Below the pieces are notes generated by a model that was not told where the DNA came from, made no database searches, and saw only the letters and a list, made by a program, of their open reading frames with translations. A stretch of DNA of 64,000 nucleotides, from assembly GCA_958296405.1 (NCBI GenBank), contig OY282519.1:2464132-2528131 (forward strand). Reading direction: 5' to 3'. Of the stretch, positions 841-5,710 are shown piece by piece; positions within the stretch are counted from its first letter, which is position 1; the number at the start of each line of letters is the position of its first letter. The position numbers and the translations under genes are program-made. This DNA is from an uncultured Pseudomonadales bacterium. Its GTDB lineage: Bacteria; Pseudomonadota; Gammaproteobacteria; Pseudomonadales; Azotimanducaceae.

Positions 841-866
841 CCGCCCCGACGGATAGGAGGAATGTC

Positions 867-2834
867 ATGAGAACAACAGTGGCCTTGGCCTTGATCTGCG
901 CCGGCCTCAGCGCCCAAGCGGCGCGGGTCGACAATTTCTCGCTGCTGGATCAGCACGGCGCGGCCCATGAGCTCTACTACTACTCAGACGCCGCCGCCAT
1001 CGTGCTCATCGTGCAGGGCAATGGTTGCCCGATCGTGCGCAACGCCTTGGCGGATTACCGCGCCGTCAGCGACGCGTACGCCGCGCGTGGCGTGGTGTTC
1101 CTGATGATCAACGCCAACTTGCAGGACAACCGCGCAGCCATCGCCGAGGAGGCCGCGGAGTGGGACATCCCGTACCCCATCTTGGTGGATGAGACGCAGC
1201 TAGTGGGCGAATCCCTTGGCCTCACGCGCACCGCGGAAGTGCTCGTCATCGACCCGCAGGGTTGGCGCATCGCTTATCGCGGCGCCGTCAACGATCGGCT
1301 GGCCTACGAACGGCAAAAGGCCGTGGCCGAGAAGCACTATTTGCGCGACGCGCTCGATGCCGTGCTGGCCGGCGCCGAAACCACGCTCGCCGGCCAACCG
1401 GCGATCGGCTGCCTGATGAACCTGCCCGGCAAGGCCGCAGACCACTCCCAGATCTCCTACGCAGACACCATCGCGCCCCTCCTGCAGGACAACTGCGTCG
1501 AGTGCCACCGCAGCGGCGGCATCGCGCCATGGGCGATGACCAGCCACGCCATGGTGCATGGCTTCGCACCCATGATCCGCGAAGTGATCCGCACCCGTCG
1601 CATGCCGCCTTGGCATGCAGACCCACATGTCGGCCATTGGCAGAACGATCGGGCGCTCACCGTTGCGGAGCGGCAAACGCTTGTGCATTGGATTGAGGCC
1701 GGCGCGCCCCGCGGCGACGGGGCAGATCCGTTGGCAGAGGCCGCGGCGCCGGCGCCGACTTGGGCGCTGGGCGAGCCGGATGTGCTCATCGACATTCCGG
1801 CGTTCGACGTGGCGGCGTCTGGAGTGGTGGACTATCAGTTTCAGGTCGTCGCGAATCCGCTGGACCGGGACGTTTGGGTGCGCGCGATGGCCGTGCAGCC
1901 CGGCGTCACGGAAGTCGTCCACCATGTGTTGGTCGGCACCACCGACGTTGGAGCGCCGGCTGCGTATTCGAACGAGAGCCTGATGAACAACTATCTCGGC
2001 GGGTATGCGCCGGGCGTGGAGCCGCAAGTGATGCCGGAAGGCACCGGCGTGTTCGTGCCAAAGGGCACGGGCTTCATGTTTCAGATGCACTACACGCCCT
2101 ACGGCAAGGCCGTGACAGACCGTTCGCGGCTGGGGCTTTATCTGCATGACGAGCCGCCGGCCAACTTCCTGCGCCACAGCGTGGTGCTCAACCCCGGCAT
2201 TCGCATTCCGGCCAATGCCAAGGCGCATGTCGAAACCGCGTACTTTGAGTTTCACCGGGAAGCGACGCTCTACACGGTGCTGCCGCACTCCCACTACCGG
2301 GGCAAGAGTTCCACCTTCACGTTGCAACATCCGAACGGCGAGCGTGAACTCATCCTGTCCGTGCCGGATTACGACTTCAATTGGCAGCGCGGCTACGACT
2401 TCGCCACGCCCCGGCTGTTGGCGCCCGGCACGCGGCTCATCCACACCACGGTGTATGACAACTCGGCGCAAAACCCCGGCAATCCAGACCCGTCGCGGGA
2501 GGTGCCTTGGGGTTTGCAGTCCCACGACGAGATGCTCTACGGGGATTTCGTCTTTAGCTGGACGGAAGAGCGCTCGGACAAACCGATCCACGATCACGAT
2601 TTCACGGAGAGCGTGCAGTGGGTGGGTTTCATGGACCGCGACATGAACGGCAGCGTCGGCTTGGACGAGTTGCCGCCGCCCATGCGCAAGCAGATGCGGG
2701 AGACGTTCGCGCTAGGCGACGCTGATGGTGATGGCGCGCTCACTGCTGCCGAGTTCCTCGCCGGTAGCCGCGCCGCCCGCCAGCGCGCCGCCAACGCCGA
2801 CCAACCCGACGATGGCGTAGTCGCGGGAGACTGA
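867..2834 (+). CDS. secreted redoxin / c-type heme / copper type II monooxygenase-like / EF-hand fusion protein
   Basis: 655 residues; the start is fixed by AGGAGG at 855–860 and a signal peptide (residues 1–18, cut near AQA/A). Residues 20–170 form a redoxin (AhpC/TSA-like) fold with a single Cys54 in NGCPIVRN and no CxxC. A c-type heme motif CVECH is at 210–214. Residues about 300–580 match the copper type II ascorbate-dependent (peptidylglycine) monooxygenase fold. All six expected copper ligands can be placed: His352-His353 and His408 (CuH-like), His474/His476 in HSHYRG and Met556 in HDEMLYG (CuM-like). Two EF-hand loops start at Asp590 and Asp618. Domain names are from family knowledge; a periplasmic copper oxygenase fed electrons through the heme and/or redoxin part is inference. 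No function is known to me for this architecture. Confidence 0.8.
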   Translation: MRTTVALALICAGLSAQAARVDNFSLLDQHGAAHELYYYSDAAAIVLIVQGNGCPIVRNALADYRAVSDAYAARGVVFLMINANLQDNRAAIAEEAAEWDIPYPILVDETQLVGESLGLTRTAEVLVIDPQGWRIAYRGAVNDRLAYERQKAVAEKHYLRDALDAVLAGAETTLAGQPAIGCLMNLPGKAADHSQISYADTIAPLLQDNCVECHRSGGIAPWAMTSHAMVHGFAPMIREVIRTRRMPPWHADPHVGHWQNDRALTVAERQTLVHWIEAGAPRGDGADPLAEAAAPAPTWALGEPDVLIDIPAFDVAASGVVDYQFQVVANPLDRDVWVRAMAVQPGVTEVVHHVLVGTTDVGAPAAYSNESLMNNYLGGYAPGVEPQVMPEGTGVFVPKGTGFMFQMHYTPYGKAVTDRSRLGLYLHDEPPANFLRHSVVLNPGIRIPANAKAHVETAYFEFHREATLYTVLPHSHYRGKSSTFTLQHPNGERELILSVPDYDFNWQRGYDFATPRLLAPGTRLIHTTVYDNSAQNPGNPDPSREVPWGLQSHDEMLYGDFVFSWTEERSDKPIHDHDFTESVQWVGFMDRDMNGSVGLDELPPPMRKQMRETFALGDADGDGALTAAEFLAGSRAARQRAANADQPDDGVVAGD

Positions 2835-2861: not shown

Positions 2862-5051
2862 ATGCAGAGCGCCGCGCCCGTTCGGGACATTGTGCTGGTC
2901 GGGGCTGGGCACAGCCATGTGGCGGTGCTGCGGCGCTTTGGGATGCGTCCTGAACCTGGGCTGCGCCTCACGGTGGTGGCGCGGGAGGTGCAGACGCCGT
3001 ACTCCGGGATGCTGCCCGGCGTCGTCGCGGACCTCTACGACGAGGCGGAAATCCACATCGACGTGGCGCGGCTCGCCGCGTTCGCCGGTGCCCGCTTGAT
3101 CGCCGGTCAAGCGGTGGGGCTTGAGCCGAACGCGCAGCGCGTGCTGCTCGACGATCGCCCGCCGCTGCGTTACGACATTCTCTCCATCAACGTTGGCGGC
3201 GCGTCCGGCGCCGAACTGCCGGAAGCGGCTTGGCTCACGCCCGTGAAACCGATCGGTGGCTTCCTGCCGCGCTGGCGGCGCGTTGCGGATGCCTTGGCGC
3301 AGGGGCCGCTGCGCATCCTGCTCATCGGCGGCGGGCCGGGCAGCGTCGAGTTGGCCTTGGCCATGCGGGCACGGTTTCCGGCCACGGCGCGGGTGACGCT
3401 CGCCACCGGGGACGCCGAAGTGCTCGCAGCCCATGCCCGCGGCGCGCGGCGGCGCCTTGCCAAGCGGTTGGCCGCCAGCGGCGTCGAAGTCGTCACCGGC
3501 TTCTTCGCCGATGCCTTTGACGTTGCCTGCGTGACGGCCCGGGATGGACGGGCGCTGGAACACGATCATGTGTTTTGGGTGGCCGGCGTGGAAGCGTCCT
3601 CCGCCTTCAAGTCTTGCGGCCTCACTACCGACGACGATGGCTTCATCGCCGTGGATCATTGCTTGCGCTCGCTCTCTCACGACAACGTGTTCGTGGCGGG
3701 AGACGCCGCGGCGATGGTGGGGCAACCGCGCCCCAAGTCTGGCGTTTACGCCGTTCGCCAAGGCCCGACGTTGGCGGAGAACTTGCGCCGCTGCGCGTTG
3801 CGCCGGCCGTTGCGCGCCTACCGGGCGCAGCGGCGGGCGCTGGCGCTGATTGGCGTCCCCCACCGCAGCGCAGTGGCGTCCCGTGGCGGCCTGAGCGTGT
3901 CTGGGCGCTGGGTTTGGCGTTGGAAGCAGTGGCTGGACCGCCGCTTCATGGCCCGCTATCAGACATTGCCGGCAATGCCGGAAGAATCCCCGGCGCTGCA
4001 TCCGGCGCTACAAGCTGCAGCGCCGGCGGCGATGCGCTGCGGTGGCTGCGGCGCCAAGCTCGGCGCAGACTTGCTGAATCGCGTGCTGGCGCGCCTAGAC
4101 CTGCCGGAGGATGCGAGCCTCCTGCAGGGCATCGGCGACGACGCGGCAGTGATGCGGCTCGAGGGCACGCATCTCGTGCTCACCTGCGATGGCTTTCGCG
4201 CCATGATCGATGATCCGTACCGATTTGGCCGCGTCGCCGTGCATCACGCCCTCAATGACGTCTACGCCATGAACGCGACGCCGCGCTACGCGCTGGCGCT
4301 GGTGACGGTGCCGGCGATGGCGGATGCGCTGATGGAAGAGGATCTCTATCAGGTGATGGCGGGCGCCGCGTCCGCGCTGGCCGACGAAGGCGTCACTCTC
4401 GTTGGCGGCCACTCGGCGGAAGCCGCCGAGCTGTCCGTCGGCTTCATGGTGGCCGGCGCCGCTGGCAACCAAATGCTCCCCAAGGGCGGCTTGCAGGTGG
4501 GCCAGCGGCTGGTGCTCAACAAGCCCATCGGCGTGGGCGTGGTGCTTGCCGGCGCCATGCGGGCGCGCGCCGCCGGGGAAGACTTGATGGCCGCCATCGA
4601 GCAGATGGACCAATCCAACGCCGCCGCGGCCGGCATCTTGGCCGAACACGGCGCCACGGCCTGCACGGATGTGACTGGCTTTGGGCTGGCTGGACACTTG
4701 AGCGAAATGACCCGCGCCGCCGGCGTGGGCGCAACGCTCTGGCTGGACGCGCTGCCGCGTTTGTCGAGCGCGGTGGAACTGATGGGCGCTGGCGCGGCGA
4801 GTTCCCTGCAAGAGAACAATGAGCAAGCGCTCGGCGACTACGCATGCGACGCACACATGCGCCAGGGCGTGGCGTTTCGGCTGTTGGCGGATCCGCAAAC
4901 GGCCGGGGGGTTGCTGGCCGGCGTGCCGGCGGCTTTGAGCGATGCCTGCGCGCGGGCGTTGCGCGACGCCGGCTATCCGCACAGCGCCGTGGTTGGCGAA
5001 GTGGTCGCCGCGGGTTTGAGCGTGGTGCCCAACGCCGGGCTGCCGGCATGA
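2862..5051 (+). CDS. selD: bifunctional flavoprotein (NDH-like) – selenide, water dikinase SelD
   Basis: 729 residues in two parts. Residues 1–370 are a pyridine nucleotide-disulfide oxidoreductase / NDH-2-like flavoprotein: an N-terminal FAD loop (VLVGAGHSHVAVL), a second Rossmann loop (LLIGGGPGSVELA) and the FAD-ribityl motif (DNVFVAGDAAA). Residues about 390–729 are SelD, which makes selenophosphate from selenide and ATP. The catalytic Cys and Lys are conserved as Cys396 and Lys399 (E. coli Cys17/Lys20), followed by IDDPYRFGR, GGHSAEAAEL and TDVTGFGLAGHL. Such fusions are known in cyanobacteria and other bacteria; the flavoprotein may supply reduced selenium, which is inference. No selA, selB, selC or mnmH is visible here, so the sink (Sec or selenouridine) is unknown. 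The stop overlaps the next start as ATGA. Confidence 0.92.
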   Translation: MQSAAPVRDIVLVGAGHSHVAVLRRFGMRPEPGLRLTVVAREVQTPYSGMLPGVVADLYDEAEIHIDVARLAAFAGARLIAGQAVGLEPNAQRVLLDDRPPLRYDILSINVGGASGAELPEAAWLTPVKPIGGFLPRWRRVADALAQGPLRILLIGGGPGSVELALAMRARFPATARVTLATGDAEVLAAHARGARRRLAKRLAASGVEVVTGFFADAFDVACVTARDGRALEHDHVFWVAGVEASSAFKSCGLTTDDDGFIAVDHCLRSLSHDNVFVAGDAAAMVGQPRPKSGVYAVRQGPTLAENLRRCALRRPLRAYRAQRRALALIGVPHRSAVASRGGLSVSGRWVWRWKQWLDRRFMARYQTLPAMPEESPALHPALQAAAPAAMRCGGCGAKLGADLLNRVLARLDLPEDASLLQGIGDDAAVMRLEGTHLVLTCDGFRAMIDDPYRFGRVAVHHALNDVYAMNATPRYALALVTVPAMADALMEEDLYQVMAGAASALADEGVTLVGGHSAEAAELSVGFMVAGAAGNQMLPKGGLQVGQRLVLNKPIGVGVVLAGAMRARAAGEDLMAAIEQMDQSNAAAAGILAEHGATACTDVTGFGLAGHLSEMTRAAGVGATLWLDALPRLSSAVELMGAGAASSLQENNEQALGDYACDAHMRQGVAFRLLADPQTAGGLLAGVPAALSDACARALRDAGYPHSAVVGEVVAAGLSVVPNAGLPA

Positions 5052-5710
5052 CGGCGACGGTCCGCATTGTCACGGACCCGATGTGTTCTTGGTGCTGGGG
5101 CACCACGCCGCACTATGAAGTGACGATGGTGGAACTTGCCGGGCGCGGCGTGGCCTTCGACATCGCCATGAGCGGCATCAATGTGCATAGCACGCGCCCG
5201 GTGGGCGCCTATGGCCGCGAACGGCTCGCCGAGCTATGGCGGGAGGTGACGGCGGTAACGGGGCAGCATTTCTCCCACCGCCTGCCGCCCGGCACGGTCT
5301 ACAACAGCCTGTTGCCTTGCTTGGCCGTGGAGGCGATGCGCGATGTGCATGGTGCGCCGCCGTTCGGCTACGCACACCGGCTGCAGCAGCAGTTTTTCGC
5401 GGACGGCATCAACGTGAACGATTTGGACGTGCTGTTGGAGACCGCCGCCGAGTATGGCGCAGCGCCGGACGTGATGCGCAAGCTCATGAACTCGAACGCG
5501 GTGCGTGAGCGCACCCGTTGGGGCTTCGAGAACGCACGCAGCTACGGCACCAACGCCGTGCCGAACGTGCTCGTCAGCGCGGACGGCGTGGAGTTCCGCC
5601 TGTTCGCCGGCGGCTTCGTGGACGCCGAGCAACTCACGGCAGACCTTGAAGCCTGGCTGGACGGGTTGGGCGCTGCGGCCTCGCCTCGCGTCGGCAGGGA
5701 AACCGGCTAG
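5048..5710 (+). CDS. DsbA-family thioredoxin-fold protein (FrnE-like, CSWC motif)
   Basis: 220 residues beginning with a beta strand and the motif DPMCSWCWG (Cys near residues 11 and 14), the usual CxxC placement of the DsbA/FrnE/2-hydroxychromene isomerase clan. A long helical insert (about 60–170) follows, then the cis-Pro loop in TNAVPNVLVS and a C-terminal helix. No signal peptide, so it is probably cytoplasmic. The ATG overlaps the selD stop by four bases, so the two are almost certainly translationally coupled. That link suggests a role in thiol or selenium redox chemistry next to SelD, but the substrate cannot be read from sequence. The C-terminal 15 residues look unstructured. Confidence 0.82.
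   Translation: MTATVRIVTDPMCSWCWGTTPHYEVTMVELAGRGVAFDIAMSGINVHSTRPVGAYGRERLAELWREVTAVTGQHFSHRLPPGTVYNSLLPCLAVEAMRDVHGAPPFGYAHRLQQQFFADGINVNDLDVLLETAAEYGAAPDVMRKLMNSNAVRERTRWGFENARSYGTNAVPNVLVSADGVEFRLFAGGFVDAEQLTADLEAWLDGLGAAASPRVGRETG

Follow-up and report, generated by a model that had tools for sequence, protein, structure and literature searches.

In animals, a catalytic fold with two copper sites serves in the synthesis of peptide hormones and of noradrenaline. What does an exported bacterial protein do with this fold, and from where would its copper sites draw their electrons? This question is raised by a gene in the 64,000-nucleotide stretch of DNA analysed here (the window), which appears to join a domain resembling peptidylglycine monooxygenase (PHM) and dopamine beta-hydroxylase (DBH) to a redoxin, a c-type heme and a pair of EF-hands. 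The open reading frame spans exactly 867-2834 (655 amino acids plus the stop codon), and its N-terminus, MRTTVALALICAGLSAQA followed beyond the presumed cleavage point by ARVD, reads by inspection as a cleavable Sec-type signal peptide, in agreement with the 655-residue exported chain described in an earlier note on this DNA. Within residues 1-18, weak AlphaFold2 confidence is confined to residues 1-3 and 9-16. The features of the gene and of its two downstream neighbours are as follows.

855..860, plus strand: strong ribosome-binding site AGGAGG, 6 bases ahead of the ATG (from the sequence)
867..2834, plus strand: whole gene (655 aa) with redoxin, heme c site, PHM-like copper domain and two EF-hands
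867..920, plus strand: signal peptide, residues 1-18 (by inspection)
921..1421, plus strand: redoxin domain, residues 19-185 (Pfam, Foldseek)
1026..1028, plus strand: codon of Cys54, the earlier of the two paired redoxin cysteines (alignment, tree)
1410..1412, plus strand: Cys182 codon, partner of Cys54 (alignment, tree, solved relatives)
1494..1508, plus strand: predicted heme c attachment site CVECH, residues 210-214 (CxxCH pattern, conservation)
1602..1604, plus strand: Met246 of the MPPW motif, candidate distal heme ligand (Met in 90/91 aligned rows)
1764..2564, plus strand: PHM/DBH-like double jelly roll, residues 300-566 (profiles, AlphaFold2, Foldseek)
1920..1925, plus strand: His352-His353, predicted CuH ligands (conservation, profile alignment)
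2088..2090, plus strand: His408, predicted CuH ligand (conservation, profile alignment)
2286..2294, plus strand: His474 and His476, predicted CuM ligands (conservation, profile alignment)
2532..2534, plus strand: Met556 of the DEM motif, predicted CuM ligand (conservation; PHM counterpart by motif)
2634..2669, plus strand: EF-hand loop 1, residues 590-601, DRDMNGSVGLDE (pattern)
2718..2753, plus strand: EF-hand loop 2, residues 618-629, DADGDGALTAAE (pattern, Pfam)
2862..5051, plus strand: fusion of a flavin pyridine-nucleotide oxidoreductase with the selenophosphate synthetase SelD (sole SelD match in the genome)
5048..5710, plus strand: thioredoxin-fold protein of DsbA/FrnE-like type (ATGA overlap between its start and the stop of the SelD fusion)

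Searched on its own, the window protein exceeds the Pfam cut-offs for the redoxin domain (AhpC-TSA, E 1.4e-11; Redoxin, E 6e-11), whereas Cytochrome_CBB3 (E 0.024) and Cu2_monoox_C (14.7 bits against a cut-off of 23 bits, E 0.021) stay under theirs, so that a single-sequence Pfam search alone would miss both the heme and the copper domain. Run against the bacterium's own genome, the window gene included, the Pfam Cu2_monoox_C model gave zero matches at E <= 0.001. Relatives were collected in a first scan of one genome per species, from which the best 80 of 124 matches were kept, corresponding to 79 loci. Alignment A1 comprises the window protein and 70 of 84 relatives, the short ORF L041 and 13 short-form members having been dropped, and alignment A2 is limited to the copper domain, taken from 47 of the 71 A1 rows. 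With A1, Cu2_monoox_C is detected in 37/71 rows and Cytochrome_CBB3 in 55/71 (E <= 0.01), and the copper-domain profile built from A2 reaches DBH (1.5e-8) and PHM (3e-6), the HH, H(Y) and HxH motifs falling in register with those of both enzymes. The profile search that the earlier note had proposed as a check therefore found AhpC-TSA from the single sequence, but the copper and cytochrome domains only with the help of relatives. None of the NCBIfam models names this family; the NCBIfam matches of members at E <= 0.001 are to redoxin models, XopAW, lanmodulin and the deiodinase family.

The AlphaFold2 model of the window protein is confident (mean pLDDT 89.9, pTM 0.89), and in a Foldseek search against the PDB ranks 1-26 are all PHM (best E 3.8e-16, target TM 0.62), with the thioredoxin-like 3u5r, 2ywi and 2cvb and DBH (E 2.6e-12) ranked below. 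Across the whole domain the Foldseek rmsd to PHM is 5.0-7.3 Å, so the mutual placing of the two jelly rolls may differ from that in PHM. The structure prediction that the earlier note had suggested thus favours, as far as the fold is concerned, its proposal of a copper type II monooxygenase, giving a PHM-like double jelly roll, and its placing of every domain along the chain is borne out by profiles, AlphaFold2 and Foldseek together. This includes the two Ca2+ loops, a canonical 12-residue pair, for which Pfam EF-hand_1 (E 3e-4) stays under its cut-off in the window protein; they are probably structural calcium sites that stabilise the C-terminus.

Conservation was assessed in a set of 91 rows, made up of the window protein and 90 of 93 ORFs; the three ORFs omitted are two free-standing redoxins and a repeat of the window gene. 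Here His352, His353, His408, His474 and His476 are kept in 91/91 rows and Met556 in 90/91, the remaining row having a gap. We take H352/H353 to be the counterparts of PHM H107/H108, H408 that of H172 and H474/H476 those of H242/H244, while Met556, which lies outside the profile alignment, presumably corresponds to M314 through its DEM motif. In the bacterial family to which the window belongs, all six copper ligands, together with the heme set, occur in 79/79 distinct genes (drawn from 100 locus records), and in two other families all six recur in 27/27 of the distinct full-length members that were read. As judged from these alignments, conservation of the six ligands is far beyond chance, and the earlier claim that all of them can be placed is upheld.

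The heme site follows the same pattern, with CxxCH in 90/91 rows (1 gap), and the motif noted previously at residues 210-214 reads CVECH in the window protein; CxxCH is likewise kept in each of the 79 and 27 genes just described. Met246 is likely to be the distal heme ligand, so that both sequence features of c-type cytochromes, CxxCH and a downstream Met ligand, are present. Because the heme motif was among the six search patterns that yielded the first relatives' set, the heme count there is biased to some extent. A set free of this bias is formed by the 27 distinct genes, which were retrieved by the copper domain alone and read from 62 listed places (two of them fragments) plus one further place, dropping two partial matches at the ends of neighbouring stretches and counting repeats once. 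Among these full-length members, CxxCH and the Met of MPPW are present in 27/27. Heme and dicopper site thus travel together among the members read, and no other observation here speaks as strongly for a heme that serves the copper site. PHM and DBH rely on ascorbate, and the idea that the heme takes the place of ascorbate as electron donor, already raised in the earlier note, is plausible and is strengthened by its retention in every member of this copper-retrieved set.

Based on the conserved sites and the predicted structure, we consider it likely that the window protein works, after export, as a PHM/DBH-type hydroxylase that depends on O2 and receives electrons via its own heme. In this scheme, periplasmic carriers, and hence the quinol pool, would reduce the chain-bound heme in place of ascorbate, and the heme would pass electrons to CuH (H352/H353/H408). 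With copper filling both sites, O2 would be bound at CuM (H474/H476/M556), a second electron would cross between the copper sites, as it does in the PHM mechanism, and a C-H bond would be hydroxylated, the product being a hydroxylated compound.

Compared with PHM (1phm, 3mll), the window protein shares the double jelly roll and the HH...H and HxH...M ligands in the same order, but it is an exported bacterial protein with a predicted c-heme fused upstream and has a Cys-free copper domain, whereas that of PHM has disulfides; Cys is absent likewise from 33/47 A2 rows. DBH (4zel) is the best profile match, with ligands in register up to HxH; in place of its DOMON domain and dimerisation part, the window protein carries heme c, redoxin and EF-hands. 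The fold and ligands are therefore known, and the comparison suggests that the new element is a heme, predicted to be fused where PHM and DBH rely on ascorbate. In the portions of the open-access literature searched (PMC8812541 and PMC3494510 included), no description of a heme-PHM fusion or of this family was found. Such an arrangement suggests that some bacteria may run PHM/DBH oxygen chemistry from the respiratory chain and not from vitamin C. With its electron donor attached covalently, a bacterial form of this kind would reveal an ascorbate-free course of the chemistry, and its Cys-free copper domain could serve as a model for timing the electron path from the heme through CuH to CuM.

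The role of the redoxin has to be considered separately. The earlier description of it as a single-Cys redoxin, based on Cys54, does not stand, since Cys182 pairs with Cys54 and the two are present or absent jointly in 47/47 redoxin-bearing A1 rows (25 both, 22 neither, 0 single) and in 26/26 from another bacterial family (12 both, 14 neither). On a quick tree of the 71 copper-heme cores, which contains some long branches, the both/neither state changes three times, and the simplest reading is that C54 and C182 were lost jointly more than once. The solved AhpC-TSA/ResA-like proteins 2cvb, 2ywi and 3u5r (24-30% identity, target TM 0.77-0.79) carry both cysteines, in a Cys-Pro motif and in IGC, but are free-standing, whereas the domain is fused here to a heme-copper core. 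Both marks of AhpC-TSA/redoxin membership are found in the window protein, namely a profile match over the cut-off and the redox cysteines.

In two close Pseudohongiella-type genomes the fused redoxin lacks both cysteines, and a separate secreted two-Cys redoxin lies about 5 kb from the core (L010, 2133-2738, minus strand; L011, 2080-2685, minus strand). In both loci this gene and an MMPL-cluster transporter gene are divergently oriented. Among the 205 loci searched, these two are the only ones with standalone redoxins near cores; in other families, in loci beyond those 205, a two-Cys redoxin gene directly adjoins the core in 5/20 stretches. A paralogue elsewhere in the window's genome (locus L081) shares 54% identity over residues 6-569, and its match, ending at residue 569, is without the EF-hand part. 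Read across the members, heme and copper form the core of the family, with redoxin and EF-hands as optional parts, and the redoxin is best described as a helper that may be fused, separate or absent. The protein had been called self-contained in the earlier note, a term to be used with caution, given that many relatives lack the redoxin and some have it as a separate gene nearby. In the hydroxylase scheme the two-Cys redoxin would most likely remove peroxide from uncoupled turnover, or relay thiol electrons, and it would be dispensable because relatives exist without redoxin or without both its cysteines.

A peroxiredoxin-like two-Cys domain fused to the core or encoded beside it, in combination with invariant copper ligands, could also point to a heme-coupled copper peroxygenase, in which copper uses H2O2, the redoxin tunes peroxide and the heme only primes Cu(I). 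We regard this as rather unlikely, since many members have intact copper and heme sites without a redoxin or without both of its cysteines, and PHM and DBH are established to use O2. Doubtful to a similar degree is a thiol/disulfide or peroxide defence protein whose PHM-like domain would be a copper carrier or sensor and no oxygenase. Such a function would agree with the redoxin being the sole domain to exceed its Pfam cut-off when the protein is searched alone, and with the position of the gene beside those for SelD and a DsbA-like protein in the window; however, the redoxin is an optional part while the heme and both copper sites are constant, and a complete six-ligand catalytic set with a heme would be unexpected in a mere carrier.

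If the protein is a hydroxylase fed by its own heme, as we favour, its substrate is probably other than peptidyl-glycine. In PHM, Arg240 is the residue that we take to hold the peptide carboxylate. As a test for PHM proper, this position was read in the family: it is Leu472 in the window protein, and Arg occurs in 1/71 A1 rows and 1/47 A2 rows. With this carboxylate anchor missing, the PHM substrate cannot be assumed here. A bacterial peptide-amidating (peptidylglycine hydroxylating) enzyme is for this reason highly improbable, even though PHM is the closest solved fold and also aligns by sequence profile, and even though one divergent member does have Arg at the Arg240 position. That member, L063:10470-11789 (YRGHMHLHG), is a short-form paralogue of Pseudohongiella type on a long branch and holds the sole Arg among the 71 rows; it could represent a different substrate class.

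The genomic setting in the window brings in selenium. Only 27 bases separate the stop codon of the heme-copper gene from the start of the SelD fusion, and, with the ATGA overlap that follows, the genes for the heme-copper protein, the SelD fusion and the DsbA/FrnE-like protein look like one operon, of which the heme-copper protein gene is likely the first. The flavin pyridine-nucleotide oxidoreductase forms the N-terminal part of the SelD fusion. The same genome encodes SelA, a tRNA selenouridine synthase and a single SelD, which, like the operon, would fit a selenium-linked role such as selenium oxidation or supply. Excluding 6 of 82 loci that have no downstream room and counting L005 and L181, which are the same gene, once, SelD is directly downstream in 18/65 distinct EF-hand-bearing loci, which belong to a single bacterial family and to three of its genera, and in 0/10 EF-less loci. 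We nevertheless judge a selenium-linked role very unlikely: 47 of the 65 loci have another neighbour, a saccharopine-dehydrogenase-like reductase lies directly 3' of the core on the same strand in 22/82 loci, and the SelD adjacency can be accounted for by common ancestry inside a single bacterial family. Selenocysteine at C54 or C182 was likewise considered and rejected, as Cys occupies both redoxin positions in 77/79 distinct genes, with no stop codon on either; the remaining two are a truncated gene (L187) and one out of register (L188). Separately, G023:C113 385-1289 contains an in-frame TGA and matches in scattered pieces, and is taken as a decayed gene copy.

The window protein is one of a bacterial heme-copper family and not a lone oddity. 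Members occur in Pseudomonadota, Planctomycetota, Acidobacteriota, Verrucomicrobiota and other phyla, and in 110/206 genomes of the bacterial family to which the window belongs (E <= 1e-100), 3/398 genomes drawn from the phylum, the window's own included (E <= 1e-20), 1/78 genomes of the order of G320 and 20/149 genomes of the bacterial family of G482. Plasmids gave no match to the family at E <= 1e-20. Two genomes of the bacterial family of G482, G645 (2.9 Mb) and G633 (2.6 Mb), encode nine heme-copper cores each, a number that suggests enzymes spread over several substrates. Four of the nine cores lie within 31 kb and 53 kb, respectively (L228-L232), and DUF6152 genes adjoin some cores in these loci.

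Extending the hydroxylase reading to the family as a whole, we tentatively propose, with a likelihood somewhat short of even, a respiratory-powered group of PHM-type hydroxylases that would draw quinol-pool electrons through their own c-heme, free of ascorbate, and that in one other family of the phylum would serve different substrates with nine copies per genome. This would point to periplasmic oxidations in Pseudomonadota, Planctomycetota and Acidobacteriota and, if true, the hormone-making enzymes of animals would represent the branch fed by ascorbate, with the bacterial kind being older than it or parallel to it.

Gene neighbours, whose survey in relatives had also been proposed in the earlier note, show lineage-specific patterns but no common pathway; the patterns offer leads and do not establish one. 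In addition to the SelD and reductase genes described above, an alpha/beta hydrolase of one cluster occurs in 14/82 loci, and in the Planctomycetota loci L034, L042 and L043 a transporter of the MMPL cluster is directly downstream of the core, that of L034 having Pfam MMPL and sterol-sensing matches. Near short-form cores of marine gammaproteobacteria, a cluster of NosR-like FMN/4Fe-4S membrane proteins is present in 16/81 sources and a PQQ-dehydrogenase cluster in 13/81, both clusters being named by their representatives; they hint, weakly, at the electron route and at what becomes of the product. The NosR-like genes (L057, L059, L061, L062, L064, L066, L068-L076 and L079) are oriented opposite to the core, and their FMN and 4Fe-4S assignment rests on Pfam for L059; it is possible that this membrane protein feeds electrons to the short-form cores.

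PQQ dehydrogenases were also counted around 55 of the 62 listed core places, in 15 of 20 genomes, against a null of uniform placement. Among the PQQ matches listed, one lies within 10 kb of 10/55 cores (5.05 expected, P 0.023) and within 5 kb of 6 cores (2.53 expected, P 0.039), a weak, approximately two-fold excess. Quinohemoprotein alcohol dehydrogenases, found near some cores, resemble the window protein in being exported and in having a c-heme beside the catalytic centre, but have a PQQ propeller where copper is predicted here, and they oxidise alcohols without O2.

Other oxidoreductases were noted beside individual cores. A molybdopterin-binding oxidoreductase lies within a few genes of the core in L109, L161, L169, L178, L190, L191, L194 and L197, identified by Pfam for L109 and by membership of the same cluster for the other seven, and also, by eye, in L010 and L011. 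A carotenoid-cleavage-type oxygenase is located near the core at 10917-12488 in L234 (Pfam RPE65 family) and at 10359-11726 in L247 (by eye).
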